The position numbers and the translations under genes were made by a program. The notes under the pieces were generated by a model that did not search any database, had not been told where the DNA came from, and saw only the letters and a program-made list of their open reading frames with translations. DNA of 64,000 bases from Labilibaculum filiforme (GTDB lineage: Bacteria; Bacteroidota; Bacteroidia; Bacteroidales; Marinifilaceae): positions 434,001 through 498,000 of the forward strand of contig NZ_MVDD01000001.1 of assembly GCF_002843315.1 (NCBI RefSeq), given 5' to 3'. This document shows, one piece after another, positions 40,511 through 46,834 of this stretch. Within the stretch, counting starts at the first letter, position 1. Each line of letters begins with the position of its first letter.

Positions 40511-41536
40511 ATGAACAGAACAGTAATTCTAATCTTCAGTTATCTTCTTGTTGCTCTTTCGGTGAAAGCCCAAAGCGGTGGCGAAAACATCTACGAATTT
40601 TTAAATTTGGGAAGTTCGGCCAGAGTTGCAGCTTTAGGAGGAGATCAAATAGCATTGGTTGATGTTGATGCAGATTACTCTTTTTACAACCCAGCAGCTT
40701 TATGTGCTGATTTGGATCAAAAAGTAGCTTTAAACTACGTAAATTACATTTCGGATATTAATTACGGATATGCCTCCTACACAAAAGACTATAAGAAACC
40801 CGGGACTTTTTCGTTGGCAATACATTACGTTAATTATGGAGAATTTACCGAAGCTAATGAATTTGGTGAAATAACCGGAAGTTTTAAAGCCTCCGATTAT
40901 GCCCTGATTGTTAGTTACGGTCGGCAAATAAATGAAAATATTCGGGTAGGAGCTTCCATAAAACCAATTTATTCCTCGCTCGAAAAATACAACTCTTTTG
41001 GATTGGCTGCCGATTTGGCCTTACTTTACGACAGCTCCAATAAACTATTTAGAGCTTCCGTAGTAGCACGAAATTTTGGTTATCAGATAAAAGCTTACTA
41101 CGGATCTCATCGGGAGGATCTTCCGAATGAAATTTTAGTTGGATTCAGCACCAAACTTCAACACGCACCTTTTCGTTTTGCACTTACCTACAAGCATCTC
41201 GAGGAATTCAACTTAAGCTACGAATCGGAACTAAACAAAACCGACGATTCCTTTTCAAAATCGAGCAAAGACAACTTTTCCGACAAAGCTTTAAAACATC
41301 TAATTCTAGGAACTGAATTTTTACCCTCCAAAAACTTTAGTATTCGATTGGGATACAACTTTCAGCGAAGATCAGAACTTAAAGTAGATGAAAAAACTTC
41401 AACCGTTGGATTCACCTGGGGATTTGGAGTGAAAGTTTCTCGTTTTCATGTAAACTTTGCCTCCGCAAAGTACCATTTAGCAGGCACAAGCAATCATTTT
41501 TCCATTAGCACCCGATTAAGCGACTTTAATTTCTAA
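40511..41536 (+). CDS. porQ: Type IX secretion system protein PorQ
   Basis: A 341-aa outer-membrane beta-barrel with a signal peptide (residues 1-20, ending VKAQ). The early segment FLNLGSSARVAALGGDQIALVD with the following FYNPAAL is typical of the PorV/FadL-related barrels, and the length and gene context (directly before cmk) are those of PorQ. PorQ is an outer-membrane component of the type IX secretion system, needed together with PorZ/PorU/PorV for attaching cargo proteins to the surface. The other core type IX genes are not in this window except for the gliding ABC transporter. Confidence 0.85.
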   Translation: MNRTVILIFSYLLVALSVKAQSGGENIYEFLNLGSSARVAALGGDQIALVDVDADYSFYNPAALCADLDQKVALNYVNYISDINYGYASYTKDYKKPGTFSLAIHYVNYGEFTEANEFGEITGSFKASDYALIVSYGRQINENIRVGASIKPIYSSLEKYNSFGLAADLALLYDSSNKLFRASVVARNFGYQIKAYYGSHREDLPNEILVGFSTKLQHAPFRFALTYKHLEEFNLSYESELNKTDDSFSKSSKDNFSDKALKHLILGTEFLPSKNFSIRLGYNFQRRSELKVDEKTSTVGFTWGFGVKVSRFHVNFASAKYHLAGTSNHFSISTRLSDFNF

Positions 41537-41641: not shown

Positions 41642-41649
41642 TACTTTTG
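41642..41649 (+). promoter_or_regulatory. Candidate -7 element of the cmk operon
   Basis: TACTTTTG, matching TAnnTTTG, 37 bp upstream of the cmk ATG at 41686. A TTTG at 41624-41627 lies only 14 bp further upstream, closer than the usual 19. Confidence 0.45.
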
Positions 41650-41685
41650 TACTCAATTGCACAAAAAAATCGAGCAATAAATAGA

Positions 41686-42381
41686 ATGGATATACCTGAA
41701 AAGAAACTAATTATAGCGATCGACGGACATTCGTCATGCGGAAAAAGTACTGTTGCTAAGGATTTAGCAAAAAAAATTAAATACACTTATATTGATAGTG
41801 GCGCAATGTACAGAGTAGTAACTCTTTTTGCCATGAGAAACAACTTAATTTCTAAAGACAAAGTAGATGAGAACAAGTTGGCTCATTTAATCAATCAAGT
41901 AAACATCTCATTTCAGTACAATACTGAAAAACAACGTCACGAAACCTATTTAAATGCAGAATTGGTTGAAGATGAAATTCGAAAAATGGATGTTTCGAAC
42001 AATGTGAGTTTAATTGCGAAAATTAAATTTGTTCGCGAAAAAATGGTGGCTTTTCAGCGCGAATTAAGCAAAGAAGGTGGTGTTATTATGGATGGCAGAG
42101 ATATTGGAACCGTAGTTTTTCCAAATGCCGACCTAAAAATATTTATGACTGCCGATGTAGAGATAAGAGCCATTCGCCGCTATAAAGAACTAAAAGATAA
42201 AGGCGAAAACATTTCACTAGATGAAATAAGAGAGAACGTTTCGAAAAGAGATTTTATCGATGAAAATCGCGATGAAAGTCCACTTCGAAAAGCAAGTGAT
42301 GCCATTGTACTAAACAATAGCCACTTAACTCCCGAAGAGCAATTGAACTGGATTGTTAAACGCATGAATGAGCTTAAGTAA
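41686..42381 (+). CDS. cmk: Cytidylate kinase
   Basis: From the ATG at 41686 (MDIPEKKLIIAIDGHSSCGK) the protein has 231 aa, the usual length. It phosphorylates (d)CMP using ATP. Seen motifs: P-loop GHSSCGKST, YIDSGAMYR (nucleotide site), GRDIGTVVFPNADLKIFMTAD, and the lid segment KRDFIDENRDESPL. An alternative start at 41647 would add 13 residues but falls inside the promoter-like TACTTTTG region. The next gene, ispH-pfkA, begins 20 bp downstream, so the two are in one operon. Confidence 0.95.
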   Translation: MDIPEKKLIIAIDGHSSCGKSTVAKDLAKKIKYTYIDSGAMYRVVTLFAMRNNLISKDKVDENKLAHLINQVNISFQYNTEKQRHETYLNAELVEDEIRKMDVSNNVSLIAKIKFVREKMVAFQRELSKEGGVIMDGRDIGTVVFPNADLKIFMTADVEIRAIRRYKELKDKGENISLDEIRENVSKRDFIDENRDESPLRKASDAIVLNNSHLTPEEQLNWIVKRMNELK

Positions 42382-42401
42382 TCAACCGATAGGTGCAAAT
42401 A

Positions 42402-44249
42402 ATGAATATTGAAATTGATCCTAATGCCGGGTTTTGCTTTGGTGTTGTAAACGCAATAAACAAAGCTGAAGAAATATTGAAAGAAGATAATACTCTCTTT
42501 TGTATTGGTGATATTGTTCACAATAATATTGAAGTTGACCGACTTAACGCACTAGGTTTACAAGCTATTAATCACGATCAATTTTCGAAACTTTCCGGCA
42601 AAAAAGTATTATTTAGAGCCCATGGCGAACCACCAAGCTCCTATAAAACAGCCAAAAAGCAAAATATTGAAATTATTGATGCTTCCTGTCCTGTAGTTCT
42701 AAACTTGCAAAAGAAAATTAAAAAAGCATACCGCGAGATTCAGAAATCGAACGGACAAATTATTATATACGGTAAAAAAGGTCATGCCGAGGTAAATGGT
42801 TTGGTGGGGCAAACCGAAGGAAAAGCTATTGTTGTTGAGAATACAGCTGATCTTAAATTGGTGAACTTTGATTTACCGGTTGTCTTGTTTTCACAAACAA
42901 CAAAAACCATTACTGGATTTACTGAAATTTCAGAATACCTGAAAAAAGAATGCAAAAGCAGTCTTAAAATTAACGATACCATTTGCAGAAAAGTATCGAA
43001 TCGTGTGCCCCTATTAAAAGAGTTTGCAAATCAACACGATGTAGTCATTTTTGTAAGTGGTGAAAAAAGTTCGAATGGAAAATTACTATTCGACGTCTGT
43101 AAAAAAGCAAACCAAAACAGTTACTTCATCACCTGCCCAAAGGAGTTGAATATGGATTGGTTTGAAAATGCAAAATCGGTTGGTGTAAGTGGAGCAACAT
43201 CTACTCCCACTTGGCTGATGAATGAAACAATTGAAAAAATAAAACTTGAAAATAAAAGCGATTTAAGCATGTCTAAAATTAAGAAAATTGGAGTTTTGAC
43301 TTCAGGAGGCGATGCTCCGGGAATGAATGCAGCTATTAGAGCGGTTGTTCGTGCTGCTATCTATAACAAAGTTGAAGTTGTAGGTGTATTACAAGGATAT
43401 GAAGGATTAATTCATGGCGATTTTAAGAAAATGAAATCTCATGATGTTAGTAACATTATTCAAAAAGGTGGAACTATTCTTCGTTCGGCAAGAAGTGAAG
43501 AATTTAGAACTATTGAAGGCAGAAAAAAGGCACATGAACAAATGATTGCCAACAAAATAGATGCTCTTATTGTAATTGGTGGTGACGGAACATTTTCTGG
43601 AGCTCGTATCTTCACTCAAGAGTACGACATTCCAGTAGTAGGTATTCCAGGTACAATTGATAATGATTTGTATGGTACCGATTATACCATTGGTTACGAT
43701 ACCGCAATTAATACTGTAATTGATGCTGTTGATAAAATTCGCGACACTGCGAGTGCTCACAACCGTTTATTCTTTATTGAAGTAATGGGTCGTGATGCTG
43801 GTTTTATTGCTTTACGAAGCGGTATTGCTACAGGAGCAGAAGCTATTCTAATTCCTGAAAAAGAAACACACACCCAAGAATTGCAAAAATACCTTGAAAA
43901 AGGGTACAAAGAGCACAAATCAAGCGGTATTGTAATTGTTGCCGAAGGCGATAAATCGGGTGGTGCTTATACCATTGCAAAAGAAATTGGAAAAGAGCAT
44001 CCTGAATACGACATTCGTGTATCGGTTTTAGGACACATGCAAAGAGGTGGCTCTCCATCTGCTTTCGACCGTGTTACTGCTTCTACCATGGGTGTTGCTG
44101 CTGTTGAAGCTTTATTAGACGATCAAAAAAGTGTAATGGTAGGAATCGTAAACGGCGAGGTATCACACGTTTCCTTCAACAAAACCATTAAAAACAAAAA
44201 GAAAGTGAAAGATTCATTAATGAGTCTTAACGATATTCTTTCTATTTAA
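42402..44249 (+). CDS. ispH-pfkA: Fused IspH (HMBPP reductase) and 6-phosphofructokinase
   Basis: One uninterrupted 615-codon frame carries two complete enzymes. Residues 1-about 280 are IspH (4-hydroxy-3-methylbut-2-enyl diphosphate reductase), with the three iron-sulphur cysteines in GFCFGV (Cys12), DASCPVV and DTICRKV, plus the substrate-site motifs IVHNN, RAHGEP, GHAEVNG and QTTKT. Residues 290-615 are a full-length (326 aa) ATP-dependent PfkA: GVLTSGGDAPGMNAAIRA, GGDGTFSGA, PGTIDNDLYGTDYT (catalytic Asp) and MGRDAGF. The join is a short stretch NKSDLS before Met290 (ATG at 43269), which could also serve as an internal start. In related genomes the two genes are usually neighbours, so a fusion by loss of the ispH stop is plausible. 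Start at 42402 preferred over GTG at 42393. Confidence 0.9.
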   Translation: MNIEIDPNAGFCFGVVNAINKAEEILKEDNTLFCIGDIVHNNIEVDRLNALGLQAINHDQFSKLSGKKVLFRAHGEPPSSYKTAKKQNIEIIDASCPVVLNLQKKIKKAYREIQKSNGQIIIYGKKGHAEVNGLVGQTEGKAIVVENTADLKLVNFDLPVVLFSQTTKTITGFTEISEYLKKECKSSLKINDTICRKVSNRVPLLKEFANQHDVVIFVSGEKSSNGKLLFDVCKKANQNSYFITCPKELNMDWFENAKSVGVSGATSTPTWLMNETIEKIKLENKSDLSMSKIKKIGVLTSGGDAPGMNAAIRAVVRAAIYNKVEVVGVLQGYEGLIHGDFKKMKSHDVSNIIQKGGTILRSARSEEFRTIEGRKKAHEQMIANKIDALIVIGGDGTFSGARIFTQEYDIPVVGIPGTIDNDLYGTDYTIGYDTAINTVIDAVDKIRDTASAHNRLFFIEVMGRDAGFIALRSGIATGAEAILIPEKETHTQELQKYLEKGYKEHKSSGIVIVAEGDKSGGAYTIAKEIGKEHPEYDIRVSVLGHMQRGGSPSAFDRVTASTMGVAAVEALLDDQKSVMVGIVNGEVSHVSFNKTIKNKKKVKDSLMSLNDILSI

Positions 44250-44333
44250 ATGAGATAAGCAAGGTGGTTTTGTTCCGGCGTATTTTCCGATTAGGATTTC
44301 ATGCACAAATGATGAGATTCTAATTAGAACTCA

Positions 44334-44341
44334 TAACTTTG
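44334..44341 (+). promoter_or_regulatory. Candidate -7 element of priA
   Basis: TAACTTTG matches TAnnTTTG, 19 bp upstream of the ATG at 44360. It argues that translation of priA starts at 44360 and not at the TTG at 44339, which would lie inside the promoter. Confidence 0.5.
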
Positions 44342-44359
44342 AGCAAAATACACACAAAA

Positions 44360-46834
44360 ATGAACAAGACTACCGAATTTGCAGATATCATACTGCCACT
44401 TCCATTGGCCCAGCTTTTTACCTACTCAATTCCTGAGGAATTAAAAGCTGATGTGGCCATTGGAAAAAGGGTAGTTGTTCCTTTCGGCAGCAAAAAATTC
44501 TACACCGGAATTGTTAAACATATCCACAATATTCCTCCCAAAGATTATTCTACCAAAGATATTCTTACTTGTTTGGATGAATATCCAATTATTAATTCCT
44601 TTCAATTTAATTTTTGGGATTGGATAGCCCAATATTACCAATCCACTCTTGGTGATGTTTTTAAAGCAGCCCTTCCAGCTGGATTAAAGCTAGAAAGTCA
44701 GACCAAAATAAGTGCAAACGAAGAATTCCGCACCAAGGAAGTTCTTAGCAAAACCGAAGAGCAAATTTTGAATGTACTTAAGCATTCTAAAGATGTAAAC
44801 ATCGCAACCTTAAATCAGGCTACTGGATTAAAAAACACCTTGCCTCAAGTAAAATCATTACTCGAAAAAGGAGCTGTTTCTATCGAAGAACAAATTATTA
44901 ATCCTTACAAGGAAAAAAAGAAAGAATTTGTTCGATTGGCATCTGATTATAGTGAATCGGAAATAGGCGACTTTATTACTAGCTTAAAAAGAGCAAAAAA
45001 ACAACAGGAAACACTACTCTCCTACCTTAATCTTTCCAAACATTATTTTGAAGAAATTGCTTTGAAGGTTTCCGTTTTTGAACTTCTAAAATCGACAGAT
45101 ATATCCAGAACAATTTTAAAAAGTTTGGTTGAAAAAAATATTCTTGAAATTTATCAGGAAAAACTGGATCGAATCGATTTGTCTGAAACAGAAACTTCGG
45201 GACTTAAAGCACTGAATGAGTATCAGGAAACTGCAATAAGTAAAATACGTAGCGATTTTAAAGAAAAGAACTGCGTATTACTTCATGGTGTTACTTCGAG
45301 CGGGAAAACAGAAATTTATATTCATCTAATTCAAGAACAATTAGAAGTAGGCAAACAAGTTCTTTACCTACTTCCCGAAATTGCACTAACCACCCAAATT
45401 ATTAATCGATTACGAAGTGTATTTGGAAATAAAGTTGGAGTTTACCATTCGAAATTTAACGATGCCGAACGCGTTGAAATCTACAACAATATTCATCAAA
45501 ACAATACAGCAAATGCTTATCAGGTAATTTTAGGCGTTCGCTCCTCGGTATTTCTTCCTTTTCAAAATTTAGGATTAATTATTGTTGATGAAGAACATGA
45601 AAACACTTACAAACAATACGATCCTGCACCACGATACCATGCCAGAGATGCTTCAATTTATCTAGCACATTTACATCAGGCAAAAACCTTATTGGGAACG
45701 GCTACACCAGCAATAGAAACCTACTACAATGCCAAAACTGGCAAATATGGCTTGGTAGAATTACTGCAACGCCACCAAAACCTGGAAATGCCCGAAATAA
45801 TTATTGCTGATATAAAAGAAGCCAAACGTAAAAAGCAGATGAAATCGATGTTCTCTCCCGAATTAATGCAAATGATGGAGACTTGCTTAGAAAATAAGGA
45901 GCAAATAATTTTATTTCAAAATAGAAGAGGATATTCTCCCTACCTGGAGTGTAAAAGCTGTGGATGGGTTCCTCATTGTCCAAACTGCGCCGTTAGCCTT
46001 ACTTATCATCGATACAACAACCAACTGGTTTGTCACTATTGTGCACACAGCGTTCATCCACCAAGTACCTGCGAACATTGTGGTTCTAACGAAATGGAAG
46101 ATAAAGGTTTTGGAACCGAAAAAATTGAGGAGGAATTAATTGGTTTTTTTCCAAATGCGCGTATTGCAAGAATGGATCTGGATACCACACGAAAAAAAAT
46201 GGCCTACGAAAAGTTAATATATAAATTCGAAAATCATGAGTTAGATATTTTAGTAGGTACACAAATGGTTTCGAAAGGTCTCGATTTCGATAATGTGAGT
46301 TTGGTTGGTATTTTAAATGCCGACTCAATGCTGAATTATCCGGATTATCGCGCCTACGAGCGTAGCTACCAAATGATGGCTCAAGTTTCGGGTCGGGCTG
46401 GTCGTAAAAAGAAACGAGGAAAAGTACTCATTCAAACTTACACTCCGGAGCACCCAATTATTAAAAATGTAATTGAGAACGATTATATTTCCATGTATTC
46501 CAATCAGTTGGCCGAACGAAAAGAATATATTTATCCACCTTATTACAGATTAATTAATATTACTTTAAAACACAAAAATCAGAACTTAGTAAATAAGGCT
46601 GCAGTGGTTTTAACAAAATCTTTGCGCAAAATTTTTGGCATTCGTATTCTTGGACCGCAAGCTCCTGTGATTAACCGAATACAAAACTTTCATATTGTAA
46701 CAATTCTCCTAAAAATAGAAAAGAAAAGTTCCCCTTCGAAGGCAAAATGGATTTTAAATCAGCAAGCAAATTATTTAAAAGAAATGGAAGCATTTAAATC
46801 TATTCAAATAAATTTCGACGTAGACCCAATGTAA
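44360..46834 (+). CDS. priA: Primosomal helicase PriA
   Basis: An 824-aa replication-restart helicase from the ATG at 44360. Order: N-terminal 3'-DNA-binding domain (ADIILPLPLAQLFTYSIP, EELKADVAIGKRVVVPFG), helicase lobe 1 with Walker A GVTSSGKTE and DEEH box, a zinc-binding insertion with eight cysteines (CKSCGWVPHCPNC and CHYCAHSVHPPSTCEHC), and helicase lobe 2 (GTEKIEEEL, VGTQMVSKGLDFD, RAGR). It reloads the replisome at stalled forks. It is longer than the E. coli protein mainly in the region between the DNA-binding domain and the helicase. Confidence 0.96.
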   Translation: MNKTTEFADIILPLPLAQLFTYSIPEELKADVAIGKRVVVPFGSKKFYTGIVKHIHNIPPKDYSTKDILTCLDEYPIINSFQFNFWDWIAQYYQSTLGDVFKAALPAGLKLESQTKISANEEFRTKEVLSKTEEQILNVLKHSKDVNIATLNQATGLKNTLPQVKSLLEKGAVSIEEQIINPYKEKKKEFVRLASDYSESEIGDFITSLKRAKKQQETLLSYLNLSKHYFEEIALKVSVFELLKSTDISRTILKSLVEKNILEIYQEKLDRIDLSETETSGLKALNEYQETAISKIRSDFKEKNCVLLHGVTSSGKTEIYIHLIQEQLEVGKQVLYLLPEIALTTQIINRLRSVFGNKVGVYHSKFNDAERVEIYNNIHQNNTANAYQVILGVRSSVFLPFQNLGLIIVDEEHENTYKQYDPAPRYHARDASIYLAHLHQAKTLLGTATPAIETYYNAKTGKYGLVELLQRHQNLEMPEIIIADIKEAKRKKQMKSMFSPELMQMMETCLENKEQIILFQNRRGYSPYLECKSCGWVPHCPNCAVSLTYHRYNNQLVCHYCAHSVHPPSTCEHCGSNEMEDKGFGTEKIEEELIGFFPNARIARMDLDTTRKKMAYEKLIYKFENHELDILVGTQMVSKGLDFDNVSLVGILNADSMLNYPDYRAYERSYQMMAQVSGRAGRKKKRGKVLIQTYTPEHPIIKNVIENDYISMYSNQLAERKEYIYPPYYRLINITLKHKNQNLVNKAAVVLTKSLRKIFGIRILGPQAPVINRIQNFHIVTILLKIEKKSSPSKAKWILNQQANYLKEMEAFKSIQINFDVDPM

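Follow-up and report, generated by a model that had tools for sequence, protein, structure and literature searches.

Several proteins are known to be fused to IspH. According to PMC4746011, these partners are RPS1, UbiA, CMP kinase, a helicase, fructose bisphosphatase and a phosphorylase. The IspH-RPS1 fusion (NF000907/PRK00087) occurs in Clostridia and others and a catalytically active one is reported in the same paper, so a C-terminal fusion on IspH is tolerated (PMC4746011). IspH-UbiA is listed there with 47 sequences, mainly from Desulfobacterales, and the four remaining fusions are each assigned to a single species or to strains of one (PMC4746011). The word phosphofructokinase has 0 occurrences in the main text of PMC4746011, and no report of an IspH-PfkA fusion was found in the accessible part of the open-licence literature. 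The description of Labilibaculum (PMC5760507), as far as its available text goes, notes phosphofructokinase genes as present and says nothing more on them. A further group of related systems comprises SpaO, HrcQ and mycobacterial ClpB, in which one gene reportedly gives two nested proteins via an internal in-frame start. The same arrangement is proposed below for IspH-PfkA, with the difference that here the short product would correspond to the entire ancestral enzyme, the start of which came to lie within the fused frame.

The window, i.e. the whole stretch of 64,000 nucleotides of Labilibaculum filiforme analysed here, contains a fused ispH-pfkA gene that translates without a stop in frame 1 (Table 1). 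A variant in the list of open reading frames starts at an upstream GTG at 42393 and comprises 618 amino acids. Pfam LYTB matches residues 5-281 of the fused protein (275.8 bits, cut-off 24.5) and Pfam PFK residues 295-571 (378.7 bits, cut-off 30.9); together, the PFK models span residues 294-614, above their curated cut-offs. The IspH half passes the NCBIfam equivalog NF002187 (352.7 bits, cut-off 276), and the PfkA half passes TIGR02482 (424.6 bits, cut-off 371.35). All 18 catalytic and signature positions checked are identical in the 17 distinct fused sequences and in all five sequences of Ancylomarina. In the IspH half, the positions kept in 17/17 fused sequences include C12, C96 and C195, which we take to be the Fe-S cysteines, E130, presumably the catalytic Glu, and the presumed IspH histidines H40, H74 and H128. 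D395 and G396 of the GGDG signature are kept in the PfkA half of all 17. Under our assumption that GGDG denotes the ATP type and GGDD the PPi type of PFK, this half is an ATP-type PfkA by its signature. Translation, Pfam, NCBIfam and key residues all agree with the preliminary description, which had read the frame as a complete IspH followed by a complete PfkA. A chance open reading frame is ruled out by the scores of both halves above curated cut-offs and by the uninterrupted frame in 16 genomes of the family. PFKs with N-terminal extensions exist elsewhere, since the PFK match of the solved chain 3opy_A begins only at residue 209.

Table 1. Features of the ispH-pfkA locus and its surroundings (positions within the window)
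Feature	Position	Strand	Basis or remark
PorQ, type IX secretion system, upstream of cmk	40511-41536		NF033711, 391.5 bits (cut-off 220)
cmk, (d)CMP kinase, 20 nt upstream of the ispH ATG	41647..42381	+	TIGR00017, 233.7 bits (cut-off 135.55)
ispH-pfkA fused open reading frame, 615 aa	42402..44249	+	Stop TAA at 44247-44249; translation and profile matches
IspH (HMBPP reductase) half, residues 1-281	42402..43244	+	Pfam/NCBIfam matches, kept residues
Linker codons 278-289 (EKIKLENKSDLS)	43233..43268	+	Identical length in 17/17 distinct fused sequences
Inferred PfkA translation initiation region, -30 to +14 of Met290	43239..43283	+	Context score, low structure, few variable sites
Codon 286, AGC in the window gene	43257..43259	+	TAA at that codon in 5/5 Ancylomarina
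PfkA (ATP-dependent 6-phosphofructokinase) half, residues 290-615 and stop	43269..44249	+	Pfam/NCBIfam matches
Met290, ancestral pfkA ATG, likely internal start of a 326-aa PfkA	43269..43271	+	Context, structure, alignment
priA, replication restart helicase, next downstream gene	44339..46834	+	TIGR00595, 593 bits (cut-off 230.35)

The locus resembles IspH-RPS1 in that a complete IspH carries an unrelated protein at its C-terminus. The partner, however, is PfkA instead of S1 repeats, the phylum is another one, an unfused sister genus retains the stop, and the partner retains a start-like ATG. The fused protein scores 236.3 bits against NF000907, for which the cut-off is 624, and its C-terminal half is a PFK where members of that family have S1 repeats. 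With IspH-UbiA it shares a C-terminal fusion on IspH found chiefly in one lineage. The link of that fusion is metabolic, as UbiA-like enzymes act on prenyl diphosphates, whereas PfkA lacks such a direct link. The rarer fusions in PMC4746011 are each confined to a single species or its strains, in contrast to the several genera with IspH-PfkA, in which a complete IspH stands in frame with a second complete domain and is conserved across species. The preliminary description regarded the fusion as unexpected on metabolic grounds, which is fair as an opinion, but unrelated partners of IspH were already known (PMC4746011). Two of the rare partners named there are CMP kinase and a helicase of some kind, and a CMP kinase gene (cmk) and a helicase gene (priA) adjoin ispH-pfkA here. 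This suggests that gene neighbours supply the fusion partners of IspH.

The gene order at 41647-46834 is cmk, ispH-pfkA, priA, and cmk likely belongs to one operon with ispH-pfkA. No second IspH was found in the genome. Counting the fused gene, the genome has four PFK-family genes. The other three all lie below the PfkA equivalog TIGR02482 and encode proteins of 372 aa (GGDGS type), 400 aa (GGDDT type) and 406 aa (GGDDT type). Against the ATP-PFK subfamily model NF002872 (cut-off 253), the 372-aa protein scores 359 bits and the 400-aa protein narrowly passes with 254.3, and the fused PfkA may therefore not be the sole ATP-PFK. IspG is present (TIGR00612, 411.7 bits, cut-off 280.25). In addition, a mevalonate-type cluster of genes lying side by side is found at L197:5712-11130 (G000:C7, ~89.7-95.1 kb). 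Its members are an HMG-CoA reductase that passes the degradative equivalog TIGR00532, a GHMP kinase of the GYDIA family, and an MvaD-like decarboxylase that passes its Pfam but not its NCBIfam cut-off; mevalonate kinase and type 2 IPP isomerase are matched as well, each below cut-off. These matches suggest a mevalonate-type isoprenoid route in the genome. The cluster speaks against the view of IspH as the only isoprenoid route, and because of it IspH may be dispensable for isoprenoids.

Among 56 genomes of the family covered by a whole-genome search (cut 1e-60), 52 give a match, and the uninterrupted fusion is present in 16 of these, namely eight of g1, two of g10, one of g9, one of g7 and four of g5. 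The g1 genomes represent Labilibaculum, with sequences identical to those of L. manganireducens and L. euxinus. Those of g5 and g9 represent Marinifilum, with sequences identical to those of M. fragile, M. flexuosum and strain N1E240. Named records add M. caeruleilacunae and M. breve, which are also fused. Once identical sequences are removed, 17 distinct fused sequences are left. The five fused genera (Labilibaculum, Marinifilum and allies) account for 18 searched genomes, of which 16 have the fusion; the remaining two, G005 and G073 (63% and 80% complete), give no match at 1e-60, so that a split copy is seen in none of the 18. A further 31 genomes of the family, Ancylomarina apart, give a match: in all 22 whose junction was read the genes are split, pfkA is absent from the fetched stretch of one (G019), and in eight ispH and pfkA occupy separate frames, as judged from the search table alone. 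Beyond the family, the fetched stretch contains both genes in 33 genomes, and they are split in every one; in some, pfkA is incomplete where the contig ends or lies across a wide gap. These 33 are members of the order from the whole-genome search, except for two named MAGs. Split junctions thus make up 55/55 of those read beyond Ancylomarina and the fused genera, and in most relatives whose junctions were read ispH and pfkA are separate but close neighbours. In the samples of the order (393 genomes) and the phylum (395 genomes), the sole full-length stop-free match is the window's own, at an E-value cut that would miss fusions with long linkers; the whole-genome search stayed within the phylum. 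The fusion is real and conserved over several genera.

One of the fused genomes, G028 (L014/L190, G028:C1:2439846-2441690), has an ispH half and both flanks that match G017 (g10) at 95-100% per 150 nt. From the pfkA ATG (Met290) to about codon 612 it matches Ancylomarina sp. DW003, with 100% in six 150-nt windows and 99.6% over the entire pfkA half. Judging from these matches, a PfkA of the stand-alone genus has apparently been swapped into this fusion and the fusion frame retained. G028 may also be a composite assembly, since its rpoB (99.1%) and gyrA (94.9%) are close to those of G061, an Ancylomarina genome that carries the DW003 sequence, and contamination is listed as 5%, although it gives a single ispH-pfkA match at 1e-60. 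In G001 (L038/L013), codons 515-525 of the PfkA half contain a one-codon deletion and altered residues (EGQES-GVNEI versus EGDKSGGAYTI), which sets it apart from the 12 other fused rows compared.

The junction of the window gene reads ...IEKIKLENKSDLS-M290-SKIKKIG, as the preliminary description had given it. No indels occur at the linker in any of the 17 fused sequences, and the frame is open in all of them, as an alignment of the junction with close relatives confirms. In Ancylomarina (g17), the stand-alone ispH and pfkA have the same gene order, base spacing and frame as the fusion, but IspH ends at a TAA at linker codon 286, followed by 9 nt and the pfkA ATG, with the total length unchanged (5/5). 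The earlier proposal that the ispH stop was lost between neighbouring genes is upheld by this layout and by the separate, closely neighbouring genes of most relatives. In the DNA tree of rpoB+gyrA (19 genomes, G028 left out), nine fused genomes form one clade (99.8/99) with Ancylomarina as sister, and gyrA alone agrees with the fused clade (99.8/100). RpoB alone groups Ancylomarina with Labilibaculum (100/92), a topology that would need a regained stop or two stop losses. In the rpoB+gyrA protein tree, which includes G028, the fused genomes minus G028 reach only 40/56 and G028 stands beside Ancylomarina, and in the gene tree of the fused protein the fused rows form one group in 42% of 200 bootstrap trees. 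In the simplest account there was probably one loss of the ispH stop; alternatively, the stop may have been regained in Ancylomarina or lost twice. The direction of change would be from split to fused. The ancestor of Labilibaculum and Marinifilum would have had an ispH TAA 9 nt before the pfkA ATG, both in one frame, with a pfkA start region that overlapped the end of ispH. Loss of the stop would then have created the single 615-aa IspH-PfkA protein, presumably retained since.

The best reading of the locus, and in our view a fairly probable one on the strength of the sequences, is a fixed fusion that additionally gives free PfkA from Met290. The pfkA start region, now inside the frame, would have been retained, and for this reason two products should arise, the fusion by translation from the ispH start and a free PfkA of 326 aa by translation from Met290. 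The suggestion of the preliminary description that Met290 could still start a separate kinase gains support from tests of start context, RNA folding and conservation. With a start matrix built from 86 clean starts of the genome against 1261 internal in-frame ATGs (AUC 0.947), only 3/1261 internal ATGs reach the score of Met290 of the window gene, which lies above 71% of the 86 clean starts (leave-one-out). In an earlier version of the matrix, Met290 scores 5.26 and the ten other in-frame Met codons (residue 11 onward) score -0.06 or less. The Met290 score of the Marinifilum types L015 and L016 is matched by 0/1261 internal ATGs. The start-like context is weaker in g10 (L012), with 14/1261 internal ATGs as high, and in G001 (L013), with 58/1261. 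An A is found at -3 and at -13 in 17/17 fused sequences and at -12 in 14/17; -6 is A in the Marinifilum types and T in the rows of Labilibaculum and g10. According to PMC6847099, A at -3, -6, -12 and -13 favours initiation in Flavobacterium johnsoniae, with -3 and -6 being Kozak-like, and Bacteroidetes are said to lack Shine-Dalgarno sequences naturally. The linker of L012, L013 and L014 is AAAGAGGAGTT directly before Met290 and contains a Shine-Dalgarno-like GGAG 6 bases before the ATG. The RNA from -25 to +20 has little structure; among 300 sampled internal ATGs, those with less structure than Met290 make up 2% for the window gene and 10% for the Marinifilum types, and in a comparison with windows of the respective gene 0-18% have less structure. 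An internal promoter for pfkA was considered and rejected. Exact matches to the pattern we take to be the Bacteroidota promoter motif number three in the window versus 4.38 expected, none of them near ispH-pfkA.

The 45 nt at Met290 have two variable sites in the six Labilibaculum sequences (mean 9.6), with 0/601 windows lower and at least one tie. In the eight Marinifilum-type sequences (g5, g7, g9) they have three (mean 14.2), with 1/601 windows lower, namely an overlapping one shifted by one codon. In the five Ancylomarina sequences, the 45 nt at the pfkA start contain one variable site and one window is lower. With all fused genera pooled, 20 sites are variable (mean 20.1) and 307/601 windows are lower. 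Given the low counts within genera and the average pooled count, the start region is conserved inside genera and has drifted between them. In Ancylomarina, an invariant run of 47 nt extends from the end of ispH across its stop into the start of pfkA, the next longest run being 17; as stop and pfkA start lie inside, this tract cannot act as a linker within a protein. For the g10 pair, three invariant runs are longer than the one at Met290. Residue-matched synonymous changes in codons 278-293 number five versus 17.0 expected (p=0.003, uncorrected). Seven windows were included in this test; those at the junction give p values of 0.003-0.021 and two at the ispH start 0.11 and 0.14, and pfkA codons 452-467 and 350-365 have lower synonymous z-scores than the junction.

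Alternatively, the 615-aa fusion protein could be the sole product, with the context of Met290 being a relic combined with A-rich Lys, Glu and Asn codons. We consider this possible but rather unlikely. The linker is rich in A through its residue content, the pooled conservation at Met290 is average, the contexts in G001 and g10 are weaker, and elongating ribosomes can hinder internal initiation. Against it stand the residue-matched synonymous test, uncorrected as it is, the low variability of the Met290 region, which ranks lowest or second lowest among 601 windows in each of the two fused groups compared, and the same tract being the longest invariant run in the unfused Ancylomarina.

The persistence of the open frame was simulated for linker codons 281-289 along a tree of 16 sequences, with rates from 172 four-fold sites, substitutions alone without indels, and G028 omitted as a mosaic. 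At the full four-fold rate, 0.3-0.6% of runs end with every tip free of stops, as do 2-4% at half and 12-17% at a quarter of this rate. Codons 286-289 alone stay open in 13% of runs at the full rate and in 32-55% at lower rates. The simulation gives moderate evidence for selection on an open linker; the evidence is strong only if the linker evolves at the full four-fold rate. The dN/dS of ispH is 0.053-0.082 in four of five fused pairs, the fifth being saturated, and that of pfkA is 0.016-0.090 in the five pairs, with several dS values near or above 1. The unfused Ancylomarina pair is alike (0.065 for ispH, 0.04 for pfkA). By these ratios both halves are under purifying selection and act like working genes. 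An improbable explanation is that a protease splits the protein at the linker, or that slippage occurs in A runs, so that mainly separate IspH and PfkA result and the read-through is near neutral. The linker is short and polar, with A runs such as GAAAAAATAAAA adjoining the junction, and a neutral linker could lack stops at the quarter rate of the simulation. The low probability of an open frame at the full four-fold rate and the lack of indels in all 17 fused sequences argue against it.

A sequencing or assembly error joining two separate genes, suggested in the preliminary description as a one-base indel at the junction, is hardly conceivable and, short of one error common to all the assemblies, can be dismissed, because 16/18 genomes of five related genera have the fusion and the same uninterrupted frame recurs in 17 distinct sequences from independent assemblies, both isolates and MAGs, including the single-contig G003, G007 and G014.

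If the fixed fusion indeed gives free PfkA as well, every IspH would be linked to a PfkA chain, tetramers of PfkA could contain fused as well as free subunits, and the tether may have a use. A regulatory role is a doubtful, tentative idea. Each Fe-S IspH would sit on a PfkA tetramer, initiation at Met290 would determine how many IspH a tetramer carries, and IspH, through its state (cluster, oxygen, HMBPP), would tune the committed glycolytic step, or the influence would run the other way, in bacteria with a second, mevalonate-type isoprenoid route.

The locus is a clear example of two genes fused through the loss of a stop, one in which the sister genus still has the stop at that codon, and cause and effect are therefore testable base by base in cultured marine bacteria. 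With it, a glycolytic enzyme joins the few known fusion partners of IspH, and the locus suggests that the gene neighbours (cmk, pfkA, priA) decide which IspH partners occur. If Met290 is active, the gene would show that a fusion can be acceptable without losing the free enzyme, and this single gene may yield two proteins in a limited set of marine bacteria.
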